From contig CALFBP010000014.1 in the NCBI GenBank assembly GCA_937951625.1, forward strand, positions 1 through 64,000: a stretch of DNA of 64,000 bases. Direction: 5' to 3'. The notes below the pieces were generated by a model. That model was not told the DNA's origin. It ran no database searches and worked only from the letters and a program-made list of their open reading frames with translations. Source of the DNA: an uncultured Thermoguttaceae bacterium. Its GTDB lineage: Bacteria > Planctomycetota > Planctomycetia > Pirellulales > Thermoguttaceae. Positions 1 to 45,210 of this stretch are shown in pieces; position 1 is the stretch's first letter; every line of letters starts with the position of its first letter. The translations under genes and the position numbers were made by a program.

Positions 1-1047
1 ATGCCCCGACTCCGCCAAGCGAAATCCGATCGACTCCTGGAGGTGCTCTCGCGTTACGAAAAAGTCCTGGTCGCCACGCACGACAATCCCGATCCGGACG
101 CGGTGGCCAGCGGCTGGAGCGTGTGGACGCTGATCAGCAAACGCTTGGGGAAGCCAGTTCGACTGGTGGGCGGTGGTTTCATCTCCCGGGCCGAAAATCG
201 CCACATGGTTCGGCTTTTGGAGCCGCCCATCGAGTTGCTCAGCGAGTTGGCCTGCGAGCCTGACACCGCGGTAGTTCTCGTTGATTGCCACCGGGGCAAT
301 CAGAGTTCTTTGCTCTGCGAGGACGGAGCCAACCTCGTGGCGGTGATCGACCATCACGAGAGCAGCGGCCGTGGCAAGCGTCCTGCGTTTTGGGATGTGC
401 GGCCGCGCGTGGCGGCTTCGTCGAGCATTGCCGCCTCGTACCTTTGGGAGCAAAAAATCGAGCCCAACGACCGTCTGGCCACGGCCCTGCTTTTCGCCAT
501 GCGGACCGAGACCCGCGGCGCCGAGACCCATTATTCCCGGCTCGATCGACAGATCCTGACTTGGATCACGCGGCTGGCCGATCCCAGCCGCCTGGCCGAA
601 ATCGAAAGCGCCCCGTTGCCGCTGCACTATTACGCCGACCTCGTCCTCGCCTTGCAGAACACCTTTCTCTATGATGATGCGGCATTCTGCCTGCTTCCCC
701 GCGCGAATGGTCCGGAAATCGTCGGCGAAGTCGCCGACCTGTTGATCCGCTGCAATACGATCGGCCGGGTCTTGTGCGCTGCGGCGTTCAGTGGCGACTT
801 GCTCGCCTCCTTCCGCACGGAACGTGAAAACGACGACGCCTCGGTTCTTGCGCGGAAGACCCTGGCCGGTCTTGGCCGCGGTGGCGGCCATCGTCACCGC
901 GCCGGCGGCAAGATTTCCAACATCGGCCCACGCATCACCGAAGACCTCGAAGAAGAACTCCGCAATCGTTGGTTGGCGGTCTGCGGAGTCGAGCGGCACC
1001 GCGGCAGGCGACTGGTCGCCGTCCGCGAGATCGTCGAGAACCTTTAA
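1..1047 (+). CDS. DHH/DHHA1 family phosphoesterase (NrnA-like)
   Basis: Probably a nucleotidyl phosphodiesterase of the NrnA/RecJ superfamily that degrades nanoRNAs or cyclic dinucleotide products in the cytoplasm. The N-terminal DHH domain shows the metal-binding motif H-D-N-P-D-P-D near residues 27-33, a second aspartate in VDCH (residues 94-97) and the family-defining D-H-H at 117-119. The C-terminal DHHA1 domain carries G-G-G-H-R-H-R-A-G-G at 294-303, the substrate-binding glycine motif. The 348 residues fit the size of NrnA-like proteins. The ATG is the first base of the window, so a longer start or the ribosome binding site cannot be seen. The exact substrate is inference. Confidence 0.88.
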   Translation: MPRLRQAKSDRLLEVLSRYEKVLVATHDNPDPDAVASGWSVWTLISKRLGKPVRLVGGGFISRAENRHMVRLLEPPIELLSELACEPDTAVVLVDCHRGNQSSLLCEDGANLVAVIDHHESSGRGKRPAFWDVRPRVAASSSIAASYLWEQKIEPNDRLATALLFAMRTETRGAETHYSRLDRQILTWITRLADPSRLAEIESAPLPLHYYADLVLALQNTFLYDDAAFCLLPRANGPEIVGEVADLLIRCNTIGRVLCAAAFSGDLLASFRTERENDDASVLARKTLAGLGRGGGHRHRAGGKISNIGPRITEDLEEELRNRWLAVCGVERHRGRRLVAVREIVENL

Positions 1048-1177
1048 GGCCTCACGTTAGGCCGCCATGCCCTTGCCGGACCACTGCGCCGGCTGCGGCT
1101 TCCACCCCACCCGTTTTGGTGGACCACGCTCCCGGTTGGCCGTGTCATTCCGCCCATCTCAACACAAAAAGGACAAA

Positions 1178-1195
1178 AATTTCTTTTGAGAAATT
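1178..1195. repeat. Inverted repeat upstream of capsid cassette
   Basis: Seven-base perfect arms (AATTTCT and AGAAATT) around a four-base centre, in an A/T-rich island between GC-rich genes. It lies just before a second, palindromic site and the first ORF of the phage-type cassette. It could be a regulator site or part of the promoter; the function is inferred. Confidence 0.45.
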
Positions 1196-1214
1196 GCCAA
1201 TAGTGTACTATTGT
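1186..1214 (+). promoter_or_regulatory. Candidate sigma70-type promoter of the capsid cassette
   Basis: TTGAGA at 1186-1191 and TATTGT at 1209-1214 are separated by 17 bases. Each hexamer matches the sigma70 consensus only partly. If used, transcription would begin at about the ATG at 1222, giving a leaderless first message. That fits the absence of a Shine-Dalgarno sequence before that ATG. This is inferred from sequence only. Confidence 0.35.
1198..1213. promoter_or_regulatory. 16-bp perfect palindrome, operator candidate
   Basis: CAATAGT-GT-ACTATTG is a perfect inverted repeat with seven-base half sites and a two-base centre. It overlaps the spacer and -10 of the candidate promoter and ends nine bases before the first ORF of the capsid cassette. 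Its geometry is that of an operator for a dimeric helix-turn-helix repressor. No repressor gene lies in the cassette, so any regulator would act from elsewhere. Confidence 0.5.
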
Positions 1215-1221
1215 TGACCGC

Positions 1222-1404
1222 ATGACGCCGCTCAGCAATACGCCGGTCAATCAGCAGAAGCTCGCCCTGCTGCACCAGGCCCTTCAGGAACTGCTTGCCG
1301 ACACCCTTCGCCGGGGCTTTCACGGGACCGCCGGCATCGAGTTCTGCGTTCAGGACGGCACGATCCAGTTCCTTCGCCGCCGCTTGGAACGGATCGAGAA
1401 ATGA
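1222..1404 (+). CDS. Small protein heading the phage-type cassette
   Basis: A 60-residue, mostly helical protein with Leu/Gln-rich N-terminal half and a basic C-terminus. I do not recognise the family. The ATG directly follows the palindrome at 1198-1213 and has no Shine-Dalgarno sequence, consistent with leaderless translation. It lies 169 bases before the protease gene on the same strand, so it probably belongs to the same transcription unit. Small ORFs of this type are common in phage head gene clusters. It could also be a chance ORF. Confidence 0.45.
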   Translation: MTPLSNTPVNQQKLALLHQALQELLADTLRRGFHGTAGIEFCVQDGTIQFLRRRLERIEK

Positions 1405-1573
1405 CAGGGCCTCGCGGCAGCACAGTGCTTACAGACCAGGCACAGCCTCGGGCGGGGGGCGGATTGCGGCCACAGGCTCGCTGGGTCCTGGCCGGCGGCG
1501 CGGGCCGACGTGGGAACACGTCCCGCGGATCGCGAGCGGCCAAACGCTTTCGTGCCAGCAGGAGAACTGATCC

Positions 1574-2515
1574 ATGTCGGAGTTGCTGCGAGAATACGTA
1601 GATTCGCGAGGGCTGAAGGTCGAGGTGGACCGTCAGGCCGGGCTCATCCGTGGGGTGAAGATCCTCGGGCTGAAGTCCCGCAACGGCCGAATCTACTTGC
1701 CCGAGGCCTTGGAAAAGGCCGCCCCGCTGTACGAGCGGGCGAAGGTCAACGTGAATCATCCCAAGGGCAACGCCGAGGTTCCACGCGATTATCAGGATCG
1801 GCTCGGCGTGATCTGCAACGTCGTCCTTCGCCCCCACGAGGGTCTGTTCGGCGACTTGCAATTCAATCCCAAGCACGCCCTGGCGGAGCAATTGATCTGG
1901 GACGCGGAGCACTTGCCGGAGAACGTGGGCCTATCGCACCACGTCGAGGCGCGAACGCGGCGGAGCGGCGATCAGGTGGTGGTCGAGGAAATCCTTCGCG
2001 TGCAGAGCGTGGACGTGGTGGCGGATCCCGCCACGACCCGGGGACTGTTTGAATCCGCGGGACACTCGGCCGCTCCGCCGCCGTGGGACCAACTGACAAT
2101 CGATAGCTTGAGGCAACATCGGCCAGATTTGGTGGAGGCGTTGTCCCAGGAGGCCGCCGCCGAACTTTGCCGAGTCCGTCAGGAACTGGAGCGACTCCAA
2201 GCAGCGGAGGCGGCGCGGCAAAAGCGGGAGCGTGTGGAACGCCTGCTCAAGGAATACCATCTGCCGGATCCCGAGCAGGCGGAGGGCTGGGCCAAAGCGC
2301 TGGTCAGTCCCACGTTCGTGCAGACGCTATTCGAGGCCCCCGACGAGGCAGCGCTGCGTCGGCTGTTGGAGGACCGGGCAGCCGTGGCCCGAAGTCTGGC
2401 CGCACTGCTCCCGAGAGGATCGCAGGATCCCGCCCGACCGCTTTCCCGAGACGCTGTCGCCCTCGCCGCGCCCACGCCGCTCGATACGAAATCCTTCGTT
2501 GCGGCGATCACCTGA
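1574..2515 (+). CDS. Phage prohead protease with scaffold-like C-terminal region
   Basis: Likely the maturation protease that trims the scaffold or capsid protein during head assembly. The first ~160 residues show a prohead-protease pattern: a His in V-N-H-P-K-G near residue 57, a Ser in G-L-S-H-H near residue 118 and the strand S-V-D-V-V-A-D-P-A-T-T near 142-152. From about residue 180 to 240 the chain is charged, Glu/Arg-rich and predicted coiled coil, like a scaffold domain, and a low-complexity tail follows. AGGAG lies ten bases before the ATG. The neighbouring decoration and capsid genes support the call. The catalytic residues are assigned by pattern only. Confidence 0.72.
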   Translation: MSELLREYVDSRGLKVEVDRQAGLIRGVKILGLKSRNGRIYLPEALEKAAPLYERAKVNVNHPKGNAEVPRDYQDRLGVICNVVLRPHEGLFGDLQFNPKHALAEQLIWDAEHLPENVGLSHHVEARTRRSGDQVVVEEILRVQSVDVVADPATTRGLFESAGHSAAPPPWDQLTIDSLRQHRPDLVEALSQEAAAELCRVRQELERLQAAEAARQKRERVERLLKEYHLPDPEQAEGWAKALVSPTFVQTLFEAPDEAALRRLLEDRAAVARSLAALLPRGSQDPARPLSRDAVALAAPTPLDTKSFVAAIT

Positions 2516-2642
2516 GGGGCCACCCGAACCACGAAGGATGGACGGCAATTCCCCGCGCGAAGGCGAAAACCAACTGCCTTGCGATCTGTTTGTACCCCCG
2601 AATTCTTTTTTCTCAACGGCGACCCGATTCAGGAGAGACGCG

Positions 2643-3128
2643 ATGAGCGACAAGATGCGTTGGAGATACGGCGACACCAACCCGGTGGTCGCCGCGGTCG
2701 ATGCCGCGACCGTGATCGAGATTGGCGACCTGGTCTACCTGGATGTCGACGATGCCAAGCCCGCTTCGTCCCAGGCCGACCAGGGTTCCGAGCCTGCCAA
2801 CCAGGAACTATTCGCCGACCGTTTCCTGGGCGTGGCGATGCAGCGGAGCCGGTCGGGCGACACGGCGCCGATCCGCGTGGCGACCACCGGGGTCTTCGAG
2901 TTCGACTGCCCCGCAAGCACGTTCGAGTTGGGCGATCTGGTGGGCGTCGACGAAAACGCGGCGGGCAATGCCTTGCTCCCTCAGCAGGTCGCCAAGGTAT
3001 CGGCCAGCAAATACGCCGTGGGCCGCGTGGCCAAACGAAGCCCCACGGCGGCGACTTGCGTGTTGGTCGACATCCGCTCCACGGTCATGACCGGCGGTGT
3101 GGAAGGCTCCAGCCCGAGCGGCGTGTGA
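2643..3128 (+). CDS. DUF2190-like capsid decoration protein
   Basis: A 161-residue beta-rich protein resembling the DUF2190 family, small proteins encoded between protease and major capsid in many phages and thought to stabilise the head. Visible features are repeated short beta strands, an early G-D-L-V-Y-L pattern near residues 29-34 and a later G-D-L-V-G-V near 99-104, which look like two copies of one fold. The reading frame extends upstream, but the ATG at 2643 has GGAGAG at a fitting distance and gives the family's normal length. The gene sits between protease and capsid genes, as expected. Confidence 0.65.
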   Translation: MSDKMRWRYGDTNPVVAAVDAATVIEIGDLVYLDVDDAKPASSQADQGSEPANQELFADRFLGVAMQRSRSGDTAPIRVATTGVFEFDCPASTFELGDLVGVDENAAGNALLPQQVAKVSASKYAVGRVAKRSPTAATCVLVDIRSTVMTGGVEGSSPSGV

Positions 3129-3219
3129 ACGGCCAGCCATCCGAAACAAGATCACCGGCCGCTGGCGATTGGCCTTGAATCCTACGAACCTCCCAATCCC
3201 CTTTTCAGGAGAACAACGC

Positions 3220-4392
3220 GTGGCAACGATTCGTTATCGAGAACTGCGAAGGCGGTACCATTTGGACGGCCCGGAAAAGACGGTCCAGCACCTCCGCGAG
3301 GCCTTGGCCGAGGGCACGCTTCGGCCTGAAGACTTCAGCCTCCGCGACTTGGCCGAGGGGCTGGTGCCCGACGGCAGCGAATGGGTCCGCATGATGGACC
3401 CCCGCCATTCCGGCGGAGTGAATTTGTTGGAATCGGCCGAGGCGGTGGACCTGACCGCCTTCCTGAACGTGACCGGCCAAGTGATCTACTCGAAAATCCT
3501 CGAGGCTTATACGCAAGAGGCGTTCGTCGTCTCGAAACTCGTGGACACCGTGCCCACGCGCCTGGACGGCGAAAAGATCCCTGGCGTCGGTCGGCTCAAG
3601 GACGAGGCCGCCGAGGTCCGGCCCGGCATGCCCTATCCGCACGTCGGCTTCGGCGAGGACTACATCGAGACCCCGTCGACGATCAAACACGGCCTGATCG
3701 TGGCCGTGACCCGCGAGGCGATCTTCTTCGACCGCACGAACCTGGTGTTGAGCCGGGCGGCGGAGGTCGGGGAGGTGCTGGGCGTCAACAAGGAAAAACG
3801 GCTGGTGGACCTCGTCATCGGCGCGACGAACAACTACAGGTGGAAGGGAACGAACTACAACACCTACTACGCCTCGGGCGAGTCCGGGCCTTGGGTCAAC
3901 GCCCTCAGCGGCAACGAACTGGTCGATTGGACCAACATCGACGCCGCCGAGCAACTGTTTGCCGAAATCCTCGATCCGCACACCGGGGAACCGGTGCTGG
4001 TCGAGCCGAATACGATTTTGGTTATGCCTGCCTATCGTCATGCGGCGGCGAGGGTGGTCAATGCCGCCTCGATCGAATACGCGGCCGCCAACCGGCCCAC
4101 CACCACCCACGCCCCCAATCCGCTTTCCCGTTACCGCGTGTACGATAGCCGCTTGGTGTATCGCCGGATCGTCGCTTCTGGCGTGACGCCCGCCGCGGCC
4201 AAGAAGTGGTGGTTCCTCGGCGATTTCCGCAAGGCCTTCGCCTACATGGAAAACTGGCCGATCACCGTCACGCAGTCGCCGCCCAACAGCGAGGCCGACT
4301 TCAACCAAGACATCGTCGTCCGTTTCAAGGCCAGCGAACGCGGCGCCGCCGCGGTGATCAACCCGCGTTACGTGGTGAAATGCACGGGCTGA
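3220..4392 (+). CDS. Phage major capsid protein, probable HK97 fold
   Basis: The likely shell subunit of the cassette, 390 residues from a GTG start. AGGAGA lies eight bases before this GTG; the longer in-frame start at 3097 would overlap the decoration gene. The N-terminal ~60 residues are helical and charged. A long mixed alpha/beta domain follows, with segments typical of a capsid E-loop and P-domain, such as D-T-V-P-T-R-L-D-G-E-K-I-P-G (about 103-116) and a C-terminal strand ending V-I-N-P-R-Y-V-V-K. Order and size match head operons. The HK97 fold is inferred, not demonstrated. Confidence 0.68.
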   Translation: MATIRYRELRRRYHLDGPEKTVQHLREALAEGTLRPEDFSLRDLAEGLVPDGSEWVRMMDPRHSGGVNLLESAEAVDLTAFLNVTGQVIYSKILEAYTQEAFVVSKLVDTVPTRLDGEKIPGVGRLKDEAAEVRPGMPYPHVGFGEDYIETPSTIKHGLIVAVTREAIFFDRTNLVLSRAAEVGEVLGVNKEKRLVDLVIGATNNYRWKGTNYNTYYASGESGPWVNALSGNELVDWTNIDAAEQLFAEILDPHTGEPVLVEPNTILVMPAYRHAAARVVNAASIEYAAANRPTTTHAPNPLSRYRVYDSRLVYRRIVASGVTPAAAKKWWFLGDFRKAFAYMENWPITVTQSPPNSEADFNQDIVVRFKASERGAAAVINPRYVVKCTG

Positions 4393-4505
4393 ACGAGCTT
4401 GGCCCAAAGCACCTTTCCTCGTAAATCGCTGGCCTTGCAACGATGCACGGCGAGCGTGACGTTCCCGCACTCCCCCCCGCTTGACTTGTCAACCAGGAGT
4501 CTTCC

Positions 4506-4721
4506 ATGCCGAGCGACTTGGAACAGATCCAGGCGATCAAGAGCCAGGCGTTGGCCCGGATCGCCGAGTTGACCGCCGAGGCCAAACCGACCTATTACCT
4601 CGACGGCCAAAGCGTGTCGTGGAACGAGTATCTTCGGCGGCTTCAGGCCACCGTGGCTTGGTGCGATCGCCAACTGGCGGGCCTGGAGCCGATCGAGGTC
4701 CATTCCCAGGGAATCACCTGA
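4506..4721 (+). CDS. Small phage-cassette protein
   Basis: A 71-residue, helix-rich protein of unknown function. An AGGAG precedes the ATG by eight bases. Its stop codon overlaps the ATG of the next gene by one base, which points to translational coupling with the putative head-completion protein. Small proteins at this position in phage clusters often act in head completion, but nothing in the sequence proves that here. Confidence 0.6.
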   Translation: MPSDLEQIQAIKSQALARIAELTAEAKPTYYLDGQSVSWNEYLRRLQATVAWCDRQLAGLEPIEVHSQGIT

Positions 4722-5365
4722 TGTTCGACCCCGGCAAGGATTTCCCCAACGTGGCTGACGGCCTGGAGGCGGTGACCGTCCACCGTCGGGACAGCACGGA
4801 GGCGATCGCCGTGGCCCATGCCTTGCGTCAGGCCATTCACACGCGCGAGGCTGCTTCCTCGCAGGGTCGGTACACGGCGGCCGACGTGGGTTGGAACCTC
4901 CCCGCCTCGGAGCTAGCCGAACCGCCGAGTCCGGGCGACGTGATCGTCGATGTGCAGGGGCAACGTTGGACCGTCCTCGAGGTCAGCCAGCTTGCCCGGC
5001 GAAGCCGTTGGCGGTGCGTCGCCCGGAACTTGGCCCTCTTCCACGGCTTGGCCGACTCCATCGTTTTGGAAAAGGCCGAGTTCAGCAAAAGCCAGAGCGG
5101 CGCGGAGCAGACCACCTGGCTGGTCTGGCGGTCCGGACTTCGCGCGCGGATCCAACCGATCGAGGCGGAGGTCCGCACCGAGCACGGCCGGGAAACAACC
5201 GCCCGGCGGTTCAAGATATTCCTCGAGGAATCCATGCCGCTGGATGAAACCATGCGCATCCGAGGCCCGGACGGCGCCATCTACCGCATCCAAGGCTTCC
5301 GCAAATCCGAGGCGCTCGACGCGCTGATGGAGATCGACGCCGTGCCAGCGGACGCCCCTTCGTAG
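4721..5365 (+). CDS. Putative phage head-tail connector or head-completion protein
   Basis: A 214-residue protein starting at an ATG that overlaps the previous stop. Beta-rich segments such as G-D-V-I-V-D-V-Q-G-Q-R-W-T-V-L-E-V (about 73-89) and a similar later stretch (I-R-G-P-D-G-A-I-Y-R-I-Q-G-F, about 186-199) suggest a repeated small barrel, as in head-closure proteins. The position after the major capsid and before a tail-terminator-like gene supports a neck role. I cannot assign a named family with confidence. Confidence 0.5.
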   Translation: MFDPGKDFPNVADGLEAVTVHRRDSTEAIAVAHALRQAIHTREAASSQGRYTAADVGWNLPASELAEPPSPGDVIVDVQGQRWTVLEVSQLARRSRWRCVARNLALFHGLADSIVLEKAEFSKSQSGAEQTTWLVWRSGLRARIQPIEAEVRTEHGRETTARRFKIFLEESMPLDETMRIRGPDGAIYRIQGFRKSEALDALMEIDAVPADAPS

Positions 5366-5392
5366 AGTCGATGCTTGCGAGGCACCACCACC

Positions 5393-5794
5393 ATGAAGCT
5401 GGAACAAGCCATCCACGCACGCTGGGCGGCGGCGGCCGGGCTGAGTGCATTGCTCCCGGCAGAGCGGTTCACGACGGGCAGGATACATGCCGTCCTGCGA
5501 CCCTATGCCAATCTGATTCGCAAGCCTGGCCGCACACTGTGCCGCACGCACGCGGGCGAGGCCGTGGACGAAATCCCGCTGGAAATCCATGTCTGGCACG
5601 ACGTGTTCGACGCGGCCCAGGCCGTGGCCCAGGAGGTGAAGGCGGCCTTCGACCGCAGCCGGTTCCCGCTCAGCGATGGCGCCAAGGTCCTACAGATGCG
5701 CCGGGCGGGCGAATCGTTTATCCAGCACCCGGATGGCGTCTGGCAATGGATACTCGGGTTTCACGTGCAAGTACTCCTCCCCTCAGGCTATTAG
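5393..5794 (+). CDS. Tail-terminator-like phage protein (DUF3168-type)
   Basis: A 133-residue protein with the pattern of tail completion proteins: an N-terminal helix, a central I-P-L-E-I-H-V-W-H-D strand near residues 64-73, a helix rich in Ala and Val, then a V-W-Q-W-I-L-G-F-H-V-Q-V strand pair near the end. The ATG at 5393 was chosen; an in-frame TTG six codons upstream is possible. The stop at 5792-5794 lies four bases before the next ATG. The function is inferred from pattern and position. Confidence 0.5.
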   Translation: MKLEQAIHARWAAAAGLSALLPAERFTTGRIHAVLRPYANLIRKPGRTLCRTHAGEAVDEIPLEIHVWHDVFDAAQAVAQEVKAAFDRSRFPLSDGAKVLQMRRAGESFIQHPDGVWQWILGFHVQVLLPSGY

Positions 5795-20329: not shown

Positions 20330-21610
20330 TCAGCCGCACCCCCCGCCCACGACGCGCCGGGCCATAGGGGCCTTGACCTTGGCGGAAAACGATCGAGCGG
20401 AGGCCACCGTCAAAGGTGGTCGGGAGACATCAAAGCGGTCGCCGAGCGCCGCGGCAAAGCGATGGGCCAATCGGTCTCTACCCAAGGAAGGGATTTCGGG
20501 CCCCGGCACGTCGCCTCGCTCCGCTTGATAAAGATCCAACCAGCGGTTCACGCCGCCGGCCAGCACGTACACACGGCTGCGATCCGTAACCGGGATTTCC
20601 GGCCTCGGGTTCAAAAGGACTGCCAGTCGCTTCCACGCCTCGTGGGCGCCCGCCTCGTCGTTCGACATGACGACCACCACGGCGTTGGACGGGACCCCCG
20701 CAGCCCAACGCGGCGTGAAATCGTCCAATTCCACACGCCGGGCATCCAGCAGGTGAAACACGTTGAAATCGCTTTCCGGGCGGACGTCGAGCAGCACGAG
20801 CGGCATTTGGTTGCCGTGCATCAAGGTCAACAGTTCGGCTGGGTCGACATGCACCGCGCGACTATGGAGTGAGGCCTCCAGACCCGCTTCGGCCCAACGG
20901 ATCTTTCTTTCTAGCGACGGCTGCCCCACAACCCAGGTCATTCCGGCCAGTCCCATAGCGGCCCCCACAGCCGCCCAACGCCAGCGTCGTTCAGAGGGAT
21001 TTTTCAAAGGAGCGGGTCCCGGGTCGTCGAGGGACGACGAGCGGGCGAACTTACGTTCCAACATTTCAGCGAAGGCGAAGGCCCCGACGGCCATGGCAAC
21101 CACCCCCAAGACCACCGAGCCTGCATCCGCTCCCAACAGGTCAGCCAAGGTCATACGGTCCAAGTAACCCGCCGTGTGGTAAAACGACCAAAATCGCGGC
21201 ACCGTTTCGGCGAAGGCCAGCAAGCCCACCGATACGCCCGCCACGAAGGCCATCCCATCGAGTTTCCCTGTGGCCGCCGCCACGAGCGAGGTGCCAGGAC
21301 AGTATCCCCCGATGATGAACCCCACGCCTAATAGCAGGCCGCCGATAATGGCGGGTCCGAGGTACGTGGGCGGAACGGCTACCCGATCGAAATCCAGCCA
21401 GCCCAAAGCCGAGCTGAAAAACACCAAGAGCATGGCGGTCACGATCGCCGTGAACATGACTTTGAGCACCCGCATGTTATGCAGATAGAACTGCGCAGCC
21501 AGATTCAAGGCATTGCCGAAACCCGCCCGTTCCAAGACGAAGCCGAACCCGAAGCCGATCACCAGGGTGACGGCGAACTCGACAGCCGGCGAGAAGCTCC
21601 AAGGGGCCAT
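20330..21610 (-). CDS. YeeE/YedE sulfur transporter half with degenerate rhodanese domain
   Basis: A membrane protein of 426 residues that probably takes up thiosulfate or another reduced sulfur species. The N-terminal ~210 residues have six or so hydrophobic helices with the conserved G-G-Y-C-P-G-T-S-L (about 101-109), whose cysteine is functional in YeeE. After one more helix (about 212-230), a rhodanese-like domain spans residues ~260-370. The catalytic loop there reads M-S-N-D-E-A-G and lacks the cysteine, so sulfurtransfer activity is unlikely. It follows the other transporter half by 20 bases, as the last gene of the operon. Confidence 0.82.
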   Translation of the reverse strand: MAPWSFSPAVEFAVTLVIGFGFGFVLERAGFGNALNLAAQFYLHNMRVLKVMFTAIVTAMLLVFFSSALGWLDFDRVAVPPTYLGPAIIGGLLLGVGFIIGGYCPGTSLVAAATGKLDGMAFVAGVSVGLLAFAETVPRFWSFYHTAGYLDRMTLADLLGADAGSVVLGVVAMAVGAFAFAEMLERKFARSSSLDDPGPAPLKNPSERRWRWAAVGAAMGLAGMTWVVGQPSLERKIRWAEAGLEASLHSRAVHVDPAELLTLMHGNQMPLVLLDVRPESDFNVFHLLDARRVELDDFTPRWAAGVPSNAVVVVMSNDEAGAHEAWKRLAVLLNPRPEIPVTDRSRVYVLAGGVNRWLDLYQAERGDVPGPEIPSLGRDRLAHRFAAALGDRFDVSRPPLTVASARSFSAKVKAPMARRVVGGGCG

Positions 21611-21630
21611 GGTGGCGGTCTCCTATCGAA

Positions 21631-22155
21631 TCAGTTCCAGAGCCTACGGAGCGGATAAGCCAGGGCGTATCCTCCGGCAAACACCATCATCATGAAAACC
21701 CAACTGCCCACGGCGAGCACCGCCCCGCCAGAAAGGGCCTGTCCCGAGGTGCAACCGCGGGCCAACCCAGCGCCGTAGCCCATGAACGCGCCGCCCAGGA
21801 GGGCCAGTCCCCAACGGAGGCGAGGGGAAACGGCTGGTCCTCGAAAGGTCTCCAGCTTCATGCGGCCAGCCAGCCAACCGGAGGTCGCCCCGCCCACCAC
21901 CGCGCCGAGAATCATCCACACGATGCGATGTTGCAGGGCTTGGTTTTCGCCGCCGGCCATGGGAGCGAGGTAGGGGTTGCGGTCCACGCGTTGGGGCGTA
22001 ACCTGCCGCTCGCAAAAGGCGACGATGCGGGCCAATCCGCCCGAGGCCCCAAGGCCGCTGCCTGTCGCGAAAATCGACGCAAACAGGACCAAGCCCAAGA
22101 CCACGCCCGCCGCGTAAGGGTTCCAATAGCCAGAAGTCTTTTCGCTGGGATTCAT
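21631..22155 (-). CDS. YeeE/YedE sulfur transporter half
   Basis: The second half-transporter, 174 residues with four to five hydrophobic helices and the conserved cysteine in A-R-G-C-T-S-G-Q-A-L-S-G near residues 136-147. The reading frame extends upstream, but the ATG at 22155 is preceded by GGAGGT and starts one base after the cytochrome b stop, so the genes are tightly coupled. Split YeeE/YedE pairs such as PmpA/PmpB act as heteromers in other bacteria; that this pair does so is inference. Confidence 0.82.
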   Translation of the reverse strand: MNPSEKTSGYWNPYAAGVVLGLVLFASIFATGSGLGASGGLARIVAFCERQVTPQRVDRNPYLAPMAGGENQALQHRIVWMILGAVVGGATSGWLAGRMKLETFRGPAVSPRLRWGLALLGGAFMGYGAGLARGCTSGQALSGGAVLAVGSWVFMMMVFAGGYALAYPLRRLWN

Positions 22156-22156
22156 C

Positions 22157-22864
22157 TCATACCTCCGAAACGCCAACGGAGAGGCCCTCCCGGCCCGACG
22201 TGGAGCCCTCCTCGGAGCCTGCCTCCCGGCCCACCTCGCCATCTGGCGTGCTTTCCACCGAGTACCCCACGACCATGGTCCTCAAGTACGCCAGCGGCGT
22301 GGGGCCTGTCGTCGTCAAATACACGTGCATCACGAGGAACGCGGCAAACAACCACGCCCCAAGGGTGTGTACCGCGGCCAGGACCGGCAAACCGCCCAAC
22401 CAGTCCACCGAACCCTTCCACGCCTGCCCACTGAACATCAATAAGCCCGTGGCAATTTGCAGCGGTAACAAAACATTAAGAATCGCCAAGTACGTCGCCT
22501 GTTGCAGCGGGTTCAAACGGTGCTCCGGATCGCGTTGCTCCGGATGAGACTCGGCGTGGAAAATGCCGCGCAGATAATACTCGGCCACGCGGGCAGTGCG
22601 GGCGAAGAAGTGGTCTGGATCGGGAAACAACTGACGGATGGCTCCGGACGTCGCGTAGTAGAACAACCCCAAAAACGCGTGGACCGACAACAAAATCCCC
22701 AACGTATTATGAATGACGATCATCCACGCGAAAGGCACGCTCAAGCTCAAGGAAGGCCAGTGGATTGCCGCCCCAGAAAGCAACAAGGCCCCAATCCCAG
22801 CCGCCTGGAGCCAGTGCCAGATGCGTTCATGAATCGTGTAGATCATTCGTCGTTGCTCGTGCAT
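22157..22864 (-). CDS. b-type cytochrome membrane subunit (b561 / formate- or thiosulfate-reductase type)
   Basis: A di-heme membrane cytochrome of 235 residues that would pass electrons between the quinone pool and the multiheme cytochrome encoded upstream. Four hydrophobic helices carry histidines in the expected places: H-E-R-I-W-H-W near 11-17, I-H-N-T-L-G-I-L-L-S-V-H-A-F near 50-63, A-V-H-T-L-G near 167-172 and L-V-M-H-V-Y near 179-184. The ATG at 22864 was chosen over an upstream in-frame start because it gives the family's N-terminus. The C-terminal ~25 residues are low-complexity and charged. Confidence 0.82.
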   Translation of the reverse strand: MHEQRRMIYTIHERIWHWLQAAGIGALLLSGAAIHWPSLSLSVPFAWMIVIHNTLGILLSVHAFLGLFYYATSGAIRQLFPDPDHFFARTARVAEYYLRGIFHAESHPEQRDPEHRLNPLQQATYLAILNVLLPLQIATGLLMFSGQAWKGSVDWLGGLPVLAAVHTLGAWLFAAFLVMHVYLTTTGPTPLAYLRTMVVGYSVESTPDGEVGREAGSEEGSTSGREGLSVGVSEV

Positions 22865-22951
22865 GTTCGTACCCTTGCGGTTGCCCCAAGCGTTTTTGGC
22901 AATGCCTTGCTTCCCCAAGCCCGACGACAGCGACCTCACCGGACGGCGTTT

Positions 22952-25498
22952 TCAATAACGGCGGCCTCGCCGACGTGCGACCCACGCCCGCAAGCTGGCG
23001 TGGATGCCTGCCGTAACCATTACGCTCCCCAAAATCGCCGCACCCAGAGTGTCAACCCATAGCCATCGGCTATAGCCGAACACGTAGGCCCCGGCGCTGG
23101 CCGGATCGGAGAGGATCGAGTCGGGGGAATGGCAGGCCTCGCAACTTCGTAAGGCGGTCCGTTTCGGTCCGACGCCGTGGTGCAGCGGCGACCGCTCCGT
23201 GGACGTCGTCAACTCGGGATTCACCAGGCCGACGGCGATCAAGCGCCGTCGAGCAACGTCAATTTTCTCGGGCGAATCCAGAACCAGTTCGGTTGCCGAT
23301 AAGGCCCCGTCGCCATCTTCGTCCAACGCCTTGAGGATGTCGGGGTGATGGTTCGGCCCTTCCAAAAAGGCCTTTCGAAGCACTTCGTGGGGCACGGCCC
23401 GGGCTTGATCCGCCCCCCCGCCTTCCCCCGAAGCTTCCGTCCAAAACACCGATACCACCTCGTTGGTGGGGGCGAAACGTGTGCGGCCACCCGCCACAGG
23501 CCGGGGAAGCATCTGCGGACGAAAACCGGTGATTCGAACAAGCGGGTCGCGAGGGTCGCCGTCCAAACCTTTCCACTCCGCTTGAGGCTCGCCTCGGGCG
23601 TCGAGCATCGTCCAGTCTACCTTGCGGAGGGCGGGAGCATGGACCTCGGCAATGTGGCACGTCTCGCACGCCACTTTCGCGAAATGGGCCTCACGGTAAG
23701 GCAGCCACTCGTGGGCCGTCTCGGCACGGTGGCAGTCTTCGCACCGCCACGTCCGATCCCTCGAGCGAATGCTCCCCATCGCGTGCCGCCGGGCGGCCTC
23801 AAGCGAGACCCGCAGCGTAGTCACGGTCGCGCCCGGATGATCCATCGTCGGATGACAGCTCGAACAGTCCATCAAGCGTTGGGCATGGACGTCCCAGGGC
23901 CGACTCAAAGAGGACTTGTCCTTCAAATTCAAAGCCGAATCTGAAATCCGCTGTGGCGAAAAGACCATCCCAGTTTCGGCTCCAGGCCACGCCACGGCCG
24001 AAAGGGTAAGCTTCAACGGCTCCGCCGCGACTTCTCCCTCGGACGGCCTTCCGATTCGCACGACGCGGAAACGATCGGCCCCGCTCCAAGTATCGGGTCG
24101 GAAGGCGGGGTCGCGGGGGTAGCCGAGACGCTGCCAATCCAGCACCCCGTTTGGCGAATGGCAGTCGCGGCACTGCAAGGCCTTGTCGGCCGACTGCACC
24201 ATGTGCGACAACGGCCAATACATGGCCGTCTCAACAAAACCATATTCGCCGCTGTACGGCAGCCCTGTGGCTTGGGAACCCAAACGGCACGCCTTGTCCC
24301 AGTCGAATTCCGTCCAATAGCCGCCTTTGCCCCAGGTTTGCGGAGTCAGCAGGTACTTGAACTTCACGTCGTAAATCTGCTTGCCACGATGGACCTTGAA
24401 GGGCCAGATTTTGGCCTTCGGGTCCCGAGGGCCGCCCAAGGGACGATTAATCAGCACGACACTGGACGGATCGATCTGCTCCCCCGTCAAATACCGCTCG
24501 CCCGTCCCATTGTACCAGTAGTATTCCGGCCGGGCGTTTTTCGCGAATCGGAAGCTTCCCTTTCCTTTCAAATACACATAAGGGTCCTCGGGACGGCCGT
24601 CTTGGCCCGCCTCGGACCAATCCCAATACATCTTGGTCGGTGAGTCGATGGCCATGCGCGGGATATGGCAGGTCTGACAGGCCACCGCTTGCGTGTGGGC
24701 GTCCAGTCGGGCATCGCCGTGAGGTTGCTCGCGGTGGCAATCGGTACATTCGACGCGCAGCACCGTATCGTAAGGCGATCCCATTCGGGTTCCCGAGATG
24801 TCGTGTTTCACCGTTCGGTGACAATCGACGCAGTGCAGATTCTCGCGGCCCATGTGGACGTCAAGCCGCGGCGGGGGGAAAAACATCGAGCTGTCCATGT
24901 CGCCATGTTTGACCGCGTCGCCACCGCCGCCCTTGAAGTGGCACTCACCACAGTTTTTCCGCGTCGGACGCCCGACGCTCCTGGCGACTGCCAACAAATC
25001 TACTCCATTTTCGGGGTATCCAGCAAGCCCCTTTTGGTAGTTGCCCGTCTGCTCGTGGCAAACCAGACAGTCGACGTTCTCAGAGTTGCCGAAGTCGAAT
25101 GCGTTGTCTTTCCACCCGTAACCGGCGTGACAGGAGGCGCATTTCTGGATGTTCGGGCCCGCATGGATGCAAAAGTTGTTGATCAAGTTCTTTTTGCCCA
25201 CGGCAATCAGTTCCTGGGATGCTGGCGCCCGCACCTTCAGCCCCGCCCAGGTCCAGTGACCCGTTCGCATCACGTCTTCCGCGGCCTTGGGATGACAGGA
25301 AAGGCAAGCGCGGGTCACCGACGGGCCGTCAAGAAAAGGGCCCTTCAACAAGTTGGAGTGGTCCACATGGCCCGCAGGCCGTGGCACATTTTTCCGCGGT
25401 GCGTCCTTTTTTTCCGAAGCAAAGCCCGAATTGGGCCGCACGCCGCCCACGACTACGAAACAAATCAGTCCTGCAATCGGCCAACGAGCCTTGCGCAT
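22952..25498 (-). CDS. Membrane-anchored dodecaheme c-type cytochrome, octaheme tetrathionate reductase-like
   Basis: A periplasmic multiheme cytochrome of 848 residues with a signal peptide. Twelve C-x-x-C-H sites lie at about 65, 120, 144, 183, 223, 251, 274, 443, 545, 586, 611 and 786. The first eight, with the D-C-L-V-C-H-E-Q-T-G-N-Y segment near 143-154, match the layout of octaheme tetrathionate reductases, which reduce tetrathionate, nitrite or hydroxylamine. The added C-terminal region carries four more hemes and a canonical EF-hand loop (D726-x-D728-x-D730-G ... E737). It ends in a membrane helix (about 815-838) with a basic tail. It heads the operon with cytochrome b and the sulfur transporters. 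The substrate is inferred from context. Confidence 0.82.
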   Translation of the reverse strand: MRKARWPIAGLICFVVVGGVRPNSGFASEKKDAPRKNVPRPAGHVDHSNLLKGPFLDGPSVTRACLSCHPKAAEDVMRTGHWTWAGLKVRAPASQELIAVGKKNLINNFCIHAGPNIQKCASCHAGYGWKDNAFDFGNSENVDCLVCHEQTGNYQKGLAGYPENGVDLLAVARSVGRPTRKNCGECHFKGGGGDAVKHGDMDSSMFFPPPRLDVHMGRENLHCVDCHRTVKHDISGTRMGSPYDTVLRVECTDCHREQPHGDARLDAHTQAVACQTCHIPRMAIDSPTKMYWDWSEAGQDGRPEDPYVYLKGKGSFRFAKNARPEYYWYNGTGERYLTGEQIDPSSVVLINRPLGGPRDPKAKIWPFKVHRGKQIYDVKFKYLLTPQTWGKGGYWTEFDWDKACRLGSQATGLPYSGEYGFVETAMYWPLSHMVQSADKALQCRDCHSPNGVLDWQRLGYPRDPAFRPDTWSGADRFRVVRIGRPSEGEVAAEPLKLTLSAVAWPGAETGMVFSPQRISDSALNLKDKSSLSRPWDVHAQRLMDCSSCHPTMDHPGATVTTLRVSLEAARRHAMGSIRSRDRTWRCEDCHRAETAHEWLPYREAHFAKVACETCHIAEVHAPALRKVDWTMLDARGEPQAEWKGLDGDPRDPLVRITGFRPQMLPRPVAGGRTRFAPTNEVVSVFWTEASGEGGGADQARAVPHEVLRKAFLEGPNHHPDILKALDEDGDGALSATELVLDSPEKIDVARRRLIAVGLVNPELTTSTERSPLHHGVGPKRTALRSCEACHSPDSILSDPASAGAYVFGYSRWLWVDTLGAAILGSVMVTAGIHASLRAWVARRRGRRY

Positions 25499-25616
25499 GG
25501 TGGGTCCCCCGATCCTAACCCGCGCATCACAACGGACACAAACGCATCCCATATAATTCGGATGCGCCGCCGTCGCGTTGGTTACGCAAAAACAGAGGGG
25601 CGGGGGAGGTAATGAA

Positions 25617-43845: not shown

Positions 43846-45210
43846 TTACACTTGGTCCGGCACGACGTAAGGTTTTCGGTACTCGCGGGTCAGAAACCGA
43901 TCGGCCTCGGGATCGTTGACGAATCGCTCGGTGTTGGGATCGAAATGTACGCTGCGGCCCAGCTTGGCCGAGATCTTCGCCAAGTGGCAGATGGTGCAAG
44001 AGAGGTGCCCTTCCTCGACATCGGCGGTCAAGTCTTTGTAATTTCCGCTGCGAATGGCCTTGGTCCAATTGCGGAAGTGCGGGATGCTTTCCGTGCGCCA
44101 GTCGATTCCCGGGCCCGCCGTCTTGAACGGGCCCGGCTCGTTTTTGGGGCCGAGGAATGTGTAGTAGCTGCTGTAGTCGGGAAAGATCATGTAGCCCTCG
44201 CTGCCGAAAAAGATTTCGCCGACGCACTGGTTTTCGGCCACAAAGGGATACTTGTCGCGCATGCCCGCCTCGCTGTTGGTGTACCAATGGCGGATCTCGA
44301 AAGTCACCAGAATGTTCTTGCCCGCCCATTGGCACAGAAAAGCCTGGGTGTTCGGCGTGTCGGCGTCATCGTCTTCGGCCGGGACGAAGCGTCCGCCAAG
44401 GGACATGACGGTCGTTGGATGGGTGTCCAGGCCGAGTCCCCAACGCAGCTTGTCCACGTCGTGAACCGTCTGGTTGGCCACGTCGCCGCTGGCGAAGTTC
44501 GAGATCCAATACCAGCGGTGGTGATGGAAGCTGGAGTACTCGACCATCTGCGCCGGCCCGACCCAGGCATCCCAGTCCAGTCCCTTGGGCACGGGACGAG
44601 GCCGATGCTTTCCCAGATTGCCGCGGAGTTTGTAAGTCATGCCGCGGCCCATATACAGTTTGCCAATCACCCCCTCCTTCAATTTCTGCATCCCCTCAAT
44701 CACGTTCGGACTGGACCGGTTTTGGGTACCGATCTGGACCATGCGTTTGTACTTTCGGGCAGCCTCGACCATCTTGCGTCCTTCGGCGATGCACCAGGTT
44801 GGCGGCTTTTCCACGTAAACGTGTTTGCCTGCCTGACAGGCCCAAATGGTTTGCAAGGCGTGCCAATGATCCTGAGTCGAAAAACTGACCGCGTCGATTT
44901 CCTTGTCGTCGAACAACGCCCGTTGATCCTTGAAGACCTTGAGTTTCTTTCCCGCCAGGTCTGGGTAACGTTTTTCCGCGGAGGCCAACTTCTCCTCGTC
45001 GCAGTCGCAAATCGCGACGATATCCACTTCATCCGGCATGTTGGCCAGGGAACCGATGTGCGAGGCCATGCGGCCGCCGAGCCCCACCAGCCCCACGCGG
45101 ATCCGTTCGTTCGCCCCGGCCGCGCGCGAAACCAACGACGGTGCCGCAAAAGCCATTGCACTTGCCGTCGAGGAAACCTTGAGAAACTTCCGGCGATTGC
45201 TGGCTGCCAT
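43846..45210 (-). CDS. Tat-exported Gfo/Idh/MocA family oxidoreductase
   Basis: A 454-residue oxidoreductase with a Tat-type leader N-R-R-K-F-L-K followed by a hydrophobic stretch. The Rossmann fold shows G-L-V-G-L-G-G-R near residues 39-46, and the catalytic motif V-E-K-P-P-T near 134-139 is intact. AAGGAG precedes the ATG at 45210; the longer in-frame start lacks the leader at its N-terminus. Exported members of this family are numerous in planctomycetes and act on sugars or glycosides, with the folded cofactor bound before export. The substrate is unknown. Confidence 0.87.
   Translation of the reverse strand: MAASNRRKFLKVSSTASAMAFAAPSLVSRAAGANERIRVGLVGLGGRMASHIGSLANMPDEVDIVAICDCDEEKLASAEKRYPDLAGKKLKVFKDQRALFDDKEIDAVSFSTQDHWHALQTIWACQAGKHVYVEKPPTWCIAEGRKMVEAARKYKRMVQIGTQNRSSPNVIEGMQKLKEGVIGKLYMGRGMTYKLRGNLGKHRPRPVPKGLDWDAWVGPAQMVEYSSFHHHRWYWISNFASGDVANQTVHDVDKLRWGLGLDTHPTTVMSLGGRFVPAEDDDADTPNTQAFLCQWAGKNILVTFEIRHWYTNSEAGMRDKYPFVAENQCVGEIFFGSEGYMIFPDYSSYYTFLGPKNEPGPFKTAGPGIDWRTESIPHFRNWTKAIRSGNYKDLTADVEEGHLSCTICHLAKISAKLGRSVHFDPNTERFVNDPEADRFLTREYRKPYVVPDQV

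Follow-up and report, generated by a model that had tools for sequence, protein, structure and literature searches.

The DNA considered here, a stretch of 64,000 nucleotides from an uncultured Thermoguttaceae bacterium (contig CALFBP010000014.1, positions 1 to 64,000; referred to below as the window), contains a cluster of four genes whose products probably make up a quinone-linked, extracytoplasmic sulfur oxidoreductase together with a transmembrane sulfur conduit, the two being coupled by a tethered thiol or selenol arm. On the minus strand, in the 5′ to 3′ direction, the genes encode a 12-heme cytochrome that includes an octaheme tetrathionate reductase (OTR), a cytochrome b, the C-terminal half of a YeeE-type transporter (C-half) and the N-terminal half of such a transporter joined to a rhodanese domain (N-half/rhodanese protein). 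Conservation of this cluster across phyla is far beyond chance, and it marks one clade of OTR proteins apart from that of Shewanella. An initial annotation had proposed a sulfur respiration operon built around a dodecaheme cytochrome; the evidence below upholds the OTR identity, strengthens the case for a sulfur role and supports the electron path, but not the dodecaheme protein as defining feature.

The operon and its multiheme cytochrome

All four genes of the initial annotation are present on the minus strand at the positions in Table 1, as sequence and profile matches indicate. The tight operon that it described is borne out by the gene spacing, the intergenic gaps read from the sequence being approximately 87 nt (to the cytochrome b ATG), 1 nt and 20 nt. 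A scan for promoters and terminators gave no signal above shuffled sequences. The open reading frame (ORF) of the cytochrome spans 22952-25552 when counted from its first ATG, and the shorter extent in Table 1 starts at the likely signal-peptide Met.

Table 1. Genes of the cluster in the window and the matches by which they were identified
Feature	Position	Strand	Evidence
12-heme cytochrome (OTR fusion)	22952..25498	minus	12 CXXCH, TIGR04315, 1sp3, HEP model
b561-type cytochrome b, likely quinone site	22157..22864	minus	PF01292 66.6 bits (cut-off 30.1)
YeeE C-terminal half (PmpA-like), pore motif RGCTSG	21631..22155	minus	PF04143 71.5 bits (cut-off 27), profile 172-309
YeeE N-terminal half (PmpB-like) + pseudo-rhodanese + GGGCG arm	20330..21610	minus	PF04143 66.5 bits (cut-off 27), PF00581 29.3 bits (cut-off 22.2)

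The 866-residue cytochrome has 12 CXXCH motifs at residues 83 to 804, with eight of them within residues 83-465. Its domain order is a signal peptide, the OTR domain (residues ~64-478), a four-heme segment and a C-terminal transmembrane helix, the signal peptide and the helix having been recognised by eye. Residues 64-478 correspond to the OTR model TIGR04315, which the whole protein matches with 606 bits against a cut-off of 375, and the S. oneidensis OTR (PDB 1sp3) is matched at E 8e-147. The lysine predicted to ligate heme 2 (VKHGD) aligns in all 114 rows of the OTR alignment, and the Cys of the NNFC motif is conserved in 113 of the 114. Judged by sequence, the eight-heme part is a true member of the OTR family, in agreement with the OTR-like character first ascribed to it. 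A grouping with nitrite or hydroxylamine enzymes would have told against the initial annotation. No such grouping was seen: no model for the catalytic subunits of these enzymes (ONR, HAO, NrfA) occurred among the NCBIfam and Pfam matches with E up to 0.1, the nearest nitrite-related model being NrfH at 15.9 bits (cut-off 134), the OTR heme-2 Lys is present and the protein falls in the OTR clade. Assignment to the nitrite or hydroxylamine enzyme families is therefore rejected. Outside the operon, a lone CXXCH motif (SCTICHLAK) lies on the minus strand at position 43998 of the window.

The four-heme segment is homologous to the C-terminal part of a heptaheme protein (HEP) found in relatives; positions 197-525 of the 529-position HEP model are matched in the OTR frame. 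In a relative from the same family (genome G167, locus L042) the gene order is OTR (481 aa, 8 hemes), heptaheme protein (748 aa, 7 hemes), cytochrome b, YeeE C-half and YeeE N-half/rhodanese. Across the window and loci L037-L136, fusion of OTR to HEP is confined to the window (1 of 99 OTR ORFs). Seven hemes are present in 43 of the 48 HEP ORFs of the relatives in these loci and 30 are fused to cytochrome b, while none shares a frame with OTR. Other large OTR-containing ORFs, two with 13 hemes and two with 15, gave no HEP match above 100 bits in the same ORF. A dodecaheme protein of special design as the heart of the system, which is how it first appeared, is thus rejected, the relatives having two proteins with 8 and 7 hemes. 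The fusion in the window may be the product of an assembly deletion. Of the N-terminal heptaheme part that the fusion lacks, the rest of the genome gave only weak matches, in an 842-aa cytochrome with 8 hemes that is a distant relative of the heptaheme partner and is encoded beyond the window on the same contig (C14, ~85.6-88.1 kb; locus L056, 9592-12120).

The cytochrome b also matches the thiosulfate reductase cytochrome b model NF011582, at 113 bits and below its cut-off of 204; no molybdopterin subunit was found among the four operon genes in a Pfam scan. From the fusions of OTR to HEP and of HEP to cytochrome b we infer that the three form one electron-transfer complex, and the same fusions lend backing to an electron path from b cytochrome through multiheme protein to OTR.

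The split transporter, its arm and selenocysteine candidates

The C-half has the pore motif RGCTSG, RGCTSS or NGCTSG in 58 of 59 C-half matches. In the N-half/rhodanese protein, pore Cys104 lies in GGYCPGTS and is followed by further transmembrane helices, the rhodanese domain and a flexible arm, the window copy ending in ...RRVVGGGCG with Cys425 as the tail cysteine; both the rhodanese fusion and this C-terminus are additions to the initial annotation. Ser316 stands at the rhodanese catalytic Cys position, which is Ser, Gly or Ala in all 31 aligned copies and Cys in none. By this measure the domain is probably not an active rhodanese and is referred to as a pseudo-rhodanese. Only two Cys columns are conserved in the 31-row alignment, those of Cys104 (31/31) and Cys425 (29/31), the two exceptions at Cys425 being L063 and L085, which both end at a tail UGA.

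The tail GG(C/U)G(G) is present in all 49 complete N-half/rhodanese copies of OTR loci, with Cys in 45 and UGA in four. This count leaves out copies cut by contig ends (L039, L061, L066, L079, L093, L175), the duplicates L102 (of L052) and L108 (of L053), L181, which has broken frames and no OTR match, and rows in which the copy is not the rhodanese protein belonging to an OTR locus (L055, the second pair of L063, L182, L183). A GGCG(G) end is found in 44 of the 2691 distinct ORFs with a length of at least 150 aa in the loci, each of the 44 being the N-half/rhodanese protein or its rhodanese part; a chance string is rejected on this basis. In L041 and L110 the rhodanese part is a separate gene, which also ends in GGCG(G) and starts with a segment that by eye resembles a signal anchor.

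The AlphaFold2 model of the N-half/rhodanese protein has a mean predicted local distance difference test score (pLDDT) of 78.8, with residues 419-426 below 50. Foldseek matched the model to rhodanese domains with a best E of 1.5e-3 and a probability of 1.0, none reaching 0.001 or better. A Pfam scan of the operon proteins found no SoxY domain; the fold is that of a rhodanese and only the tail motif is SoxY-like. Taking as loops the segments between helices of the model, the mean net charge over the 31 rows is successively -0.35, +1.06, -0.90, +0.97, -1.97 and +0.61, and -0.94 after the last helix. Counts of Lys plus Arg per segment (0.45, 2.26, 0.45, 0.97, 1.29, 2.35, 3.55) follow the same pattern less cleanly. 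Under the positive-inside rule this alternation places the N-terminus and the rhodanese domain outside, and both are thus predicted to be periplasmic. The predicted topology agrees with that of S. thermophila YeeE, in which R98 and E101, just after Cys91, are placed on the cytoplasmic side according to the available text of PMC11073785.

Four loci from Chloroflexota (L063, L064, L075, L085) have a tail reading GGG-UGA-GGN-stop, the UGA matching the Cys position of GGCG-stop elsewhere, and in L064 and L075 UGA also replaces the pore Cys in GG(F/Y)CPGTS. Each of the four tail UGA codons is followed, 15-16 nt downstream of the U, by a hairpin of 6-7 bp with a 3-nt loop, a putative SECIS element. 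Hairpin z-scores range from -1.3 to -3.6 at the tails, from -0.7 to -0.9 at the two pore sites and from +0.6 to -1.1 at eight control sites. SelA is over its cut-off in all four UGA-tail genomes and SelB in two, with partial matches below cut-off in the other two; the window genome has no SelA match and only SelB matches below cut-off. Nominal tRNA-Sec matches over the gathering score occur in all five genomes searched, the window genome included, while full 95-nt matches, at 65-69 bits, are limited to G392, G393 and G395, G394 being at the (non-Sec) level of the window genome. The four UGA-tail copies hence combine UGA at a conserved Cys position with selenocysteine (Sec) machinery in the genome. 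The window copy has Cys codons, with no in-frame UGA at pore or tail, and is not itself a candidate selenoprotein.

A sequencing error is an unlikely source of these UGA codons, which sit on two conserved Cys positions, the tail UGA being followed by GGN-stop in all four loci. These loci, together with the truncated L091, form one OTR clade (SH-like approximate likelihood ratio test, SH-aLRT, 97). Certain observations detract from the case for Sec. The pore-site hairpins lie inside the control range, strong hairpins also follow the ordinary TAA or TAG stop in the Cys-tail controls L073 and L083, and SelB is over cut-off in 15 of 20 genomes searched, most of them with Cys copies, so that its presence is permissive and not specific. 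Hairpins alone do not prove Sec, and the UGA-tail copies are regarded as selenocysteine candidates. Exchange of Cys for UGA at exactly the tail and pore positions argues that both are chemically active. Stand-alone PmpB-like YeeE halves without rhodanese but with a pore UGA (GY/GF-UGA-PGTC) are encoded in Chloroflexota loci (L063 15756-16040, as the second pair; L153, L154, L156, L157, L163) and are further candidate selenoproteins.

Distribution and the module shared with PsrABC-like operons

Scanning of GTDB species genomes with the OTR alignment returned at least 540 relatives, of which the best 80 loci were kept; among these, L102, L108 and L112 repeat loci already sampled. A YeeE half lies downstream in 37 of the 80, seven have HEP without YeeE on the piece, and 36, mostly from Shewanella and Desulfuromonadales, have neither. 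Carriers of the cluster belong to Planctomycetota, Chloroflexota, KSB1, Calditrichota, Krumholzibacteriota, Gemmatimonadota and Myxococcota and include one gammaproteobacterium, all of the named ones being records of metagenome-assembled genomes. In a draw of 400 genomes from Chloroflexota, the phylum of L064, 21 match the N-half/rhodanese alignment at E 1e-20, and 15 (L166-L180) of the 18 places fetched show OTR, HEP and YeeE C-half matches. Operon-clade OTRs occur in 10 of 392 planctomycete genomes, and all ten also have a GGCG-tailed protein, in four cases on another contig.

In a tree of 114 OTR rows, from which L112 was dropped as a duplicate of L054, the operon OTRs form one clade of 67 rows (SH-aLRT 99). 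A YeeE half is found in the locus of 56 of these, HEP only in eight and neither in three; 10 of the 11 rows without YeeE end at contig ends. A separate 36-row clade of the Shewanella/Ferrimonas/Desulfuromonadales type has no HEP, cytochrome b or YeeE match nearby. Outside the operon clade are the 15-heme OTR-like rows of L071 and L081, the cytochrome in question being encoded upstream of the OTR operon (L071 4999-7215; L081 4513-6771). In the neighbourhood of OTR, 24 of the 45 loci compared, for the most part from Chloroflexota, encode an ArsR-family protein (five of these proteins were scanned) with one Cys that is conserved by eye; examples of this candidate sulfur-responsive repressor are L067 9230-9733 and L064 9070-9426 (minus strand).

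The tail is not exclusive to OTR operons. Planctomycete tails were looked at in 30 loci, 73 genomes having had a match, and a Cys-tailed YeeE N-half in the absence of an operon-clade OTR was found in five genomes: G229 (GGCG), G218 (GGCS), G346 (GGDCS), G309 (GGGCS) and G113 (EGC). In all five, the YeeE pair lies behind a molybdoenzyme operon with an NrfD-type membrane gene. The best NCBIfam model for the five molybdenum subunits is thiosulfate reductase PhsA, at 458-503 bits and below its cut-off of 694. The Fe-S subunit was identified by scanning in L214 and L218 and from its motif in L215, L216 and L217. For the molybdenum subunit of L214, the one compared with the PDB, the best match is 2vpw at E 9e-221; this entry is labelled thiosulfate reductase, and we take it to be the Thermus polysulfide reductase. 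As the arm-bearing conduit is common to OTR and to an enzyme of a sulfur-reductase family, it follows that the OTR complex probably works on sulfur too. Among the sequence-based arguments for a sulfur role of the OTR complex this sharing of the module with PsrABC-like genes is the strongest, and it strengthens what had been proposed from the window by itself.

Other YeeE-rhodanese proteins outside OTR loci have no Cys tail (L055, L196, L202, L203, L205). L055, on another contig of the window genome (C91, ~755-5409), holds a second YeeE pair without OTR. Its gene order is a metallo-beta-lactamase/rhodanese protein, a YeeE C-half and a YeeE N-half with three rhodanese stretches, and L225 is similar by eye. 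The metallo-beta-lactamase protein has a signal-peptide-like start, three rhodanese stretches and an AGC tail (...KKKSAGC).

Proposed mechanism, alternatives and known systems

In the proposed mechanism, quinone and the Lys-ligated catalytic heme 2 of OTR would exchange electrons by way of the b561 cytochrome and a heme wire. The wire would be the heptaheme protein, the last four hemes of which are fused to OTR in the window. The YeeE pair would form a Cys-lined pore, and the flexible GG(C/U)G tail on the periplasmic pseudo-rhodanese would function in the manner of the SoxY arm and with its thiol or selenol would ferry sulfane sulfur, in persulfide or thiosulfonate form, between the active site of OTR and the pore Cys. 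The parts, the conservation of the operon, the clade, the conserved tail, the UGA codons at tail and pore Cys positions and the sharing of the module with PsrABC-like genes are read from sequence, and from these we infer the complex, its topology, the arm chemistry, the substrate, the direction and import. With regard to direction, reductive cleavage of an S-S compound such as polysulfide or polythionate, followed by capture and import of the sulfane sulfur, is slightly favoured over oxidative loading.

Several points tell against this mechanism. The window genome has neither a TusA nor a DsrA match and so no evident cytoplasmic sulfur acceptor. SoxXA-type oxidative loading would use the same parts. 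L058, a Latescibacterota chromosome, has OTR, HEP and cytochrome b without YeeE and is a real exception. The YeeE part is modelled by AlphaFold2 with modest confidence, a pLDDT below 70 being seen in 9 of the first 20 ten-residue blocks. Across the operon genomes TusA was matched in 6 of 14, with no match in the other eight (G000, G167 and six others) despite the YeeE pair, and DsrA is over cut-off in 2 of the 14 checked, several of which may be incomplete. These counts leave cytoplasmic oxidation linked to Dsr unsupported as the general purpose of import.

If the enzyme were to run in the oxidative, SoxXA-like direction, OTR would couple thiosulfate, sulfide or polysulfide to the arm thiol, electrons would leave through the heptaheme protein and b561 to quinone, and YeeE would import the bound sulfur, as has been proposed for SoxYZ to SoxT. 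The tail is that of SoxY, whose GGCGG motif binds sulfur (PMC6067878, in part), and the available text of PMC11582611 discusses such a hand-over, calling it conceivable that sulfur of the SoxY Cys moves on via the channel cysteines of SoxT. The sulfur-oxidising symbionts of lucinids have a soxYZ variant beside otr (PMC11237559, available text). This independent pairing of OTR with a GGCGG-type carrier also fits a partnership of OTR with a carrier arm in general. Cytochromes of the b561 type and heme wires work both ways. The oxidative direction is nevertheless considered unlikely, because the enzyme in the other context of the module is PsrABC/PhsABC-like and so of a reductase family, because OTR heme potentials are similar to the -100 to -450 mV of MmcA (PMC11024163, in part), which is low for thiosulfate oxidation, and because DsrA for downstream oxidation is below cut-off or unmatched in 12 of the 14 genomes.

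That the OTR complex serves to reduce nitrite, hydroxylamine or NO, with the sulfur genes as mere neighbours, appears highly improbable. The name OTR alone is no proof of sulfur respiration, since nitrite and hydroxylamine are in vitro substrates for reduction by the S. oneidensis OTR, which is also an interaction partner of STC (PMC4484225, available text), a finding that weighs against a sulfur role. The YeeE halves, however, accompany nearly every clade member not cut by a contig end, their module is otherwise paired with PsrABC-like genes, and an arm with Cys exchanged for a candidate Sec has no evident place in nitrite reduction. It is very unlikely, though less so, that the module serves to detoxify or transport a different chalcogen or some thiophilic element (selenium, arsenic, mercury), the oxyanion or elemental form of which OTR would reduce. 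NCBIfam names tie YeeE/YedE relatives to selenium metabolism, the ArsR-family regulators near OTR would suit such a role, and the available text of PMC13188914 connects several transport proteins that contain Sec with resistance to metals. On the other hand, the predominance of Cys over UGA among the tails and the lack of a SelA match in the window genome indicate that selenium supply is not the common purpose, and ArsR-type repressors also sense sulfane sulfur (PMC12423496, in part).

A sulfur conduit driven by OTR would resemble several known systems in part. It shares with the S. oneidensis OTR the fold family by sequence, the eight hemes, the heme-2 Lys and the NNFC Cys, while the sampled Shewanella loci fall in the separate clade that has no partner genes nearby. 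With the split PmpA/PmpB and the full-length SoxT/TsuA forms of YeeE (PMC11582611, in part) it has in common a Cys91-like pore Cys in the N-half and a second pore Cys in the C-half, and with PmpA/PmpB the two-gene arrangement as well. Unlike PmpB or SoxT-type YeeE, the N-half here is longer, with its further helices, pseudo-rhodanese and GG(C/U)G tail. SoxY likewise has a Gly-flanked Cys at the extreme C-terminus of an extracytoplasmic protein and a published neighbourhood with otr (PMC11237559, in part). Here, by contrast, the arm would be borne on a rhodanese fold and tethered to a transporter, and the likeness would be functional only. PsrABC/PhsABC (PDB 2vpw) belongs to a quinone-linked periplasmic sulfur reductase family, and genes of its kind precede the same YeeE pair, with a C-terminal Cys, in the five planctomycetes, but it is a molybdoenzyme, in the place of which a multiheme enzyme stands here. 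Sud of Wolinella passes polysulfide sulfur to Psr, uses its rhodanese Cys and is not known to be membrane tethered. Its structure (1qxn) is a Foldseek match at rank 47 and shares the rhodanese fold, while its rhodanese Cys is absent from the pseudo-rhodanese. In the scheme of PMC12142623 (available text), sulfur of periplasmic polysulfide or of transferases reaches the cytoplasm by way of YeeE-type proteins, and Psr acts as a sulfur reductase in the periplasm. Selenocysteine is already listed for YeeE/YedE (PF04143, GUxSG) and for OTR (TIGR04315) in PMC13188914; the listed YeeE motif is, however, that of the C-half pore, and Sec in the GGUG tail or in GG(F/Y)UPGTS is not among the motifs in the available part of that list. 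In line with the initial annotation, which knew of no described system of this composition, no description of the cluster or of the tail was found in the literature searched (preprints and subscription papers may differ).

Taken further, the swinging-arm mechanism leads to a wider reading that is offered tentatively. This OTR clade might be the redox partner of a membrane-tethered thiol or selenol swinging arm, and not a plain tetrathionate or nitrite reductase. The arm, its pseudo-rhodanese docking domain and the split YeeE pore could then be one machine, a heme-based counterpart of SoxXA-SoxY or Psr-Sud, that loads or unloads periplasmic sulfane sulfur and lets it cross the membrane without release, the arm being a plug-in module common to PsrABC-like enzymes.

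The cluster suggests that a multiheme enzyme and an importer exchange sulfur. Through the conserved operon, one OTR clade is linked to a sulfur conduit whose Cys or Sec arm looks essential, and the function of OTR becomes directly testable. Chloroflexota and Planctomycetota also emerge as possible participants in the cycling of sulfur intermediates. If the proposal is true, a sulfur carrier arm would be built into its own transporter, which would bear on how sulfane sulfur crosses the membrane in the SoxT/YeeE family.

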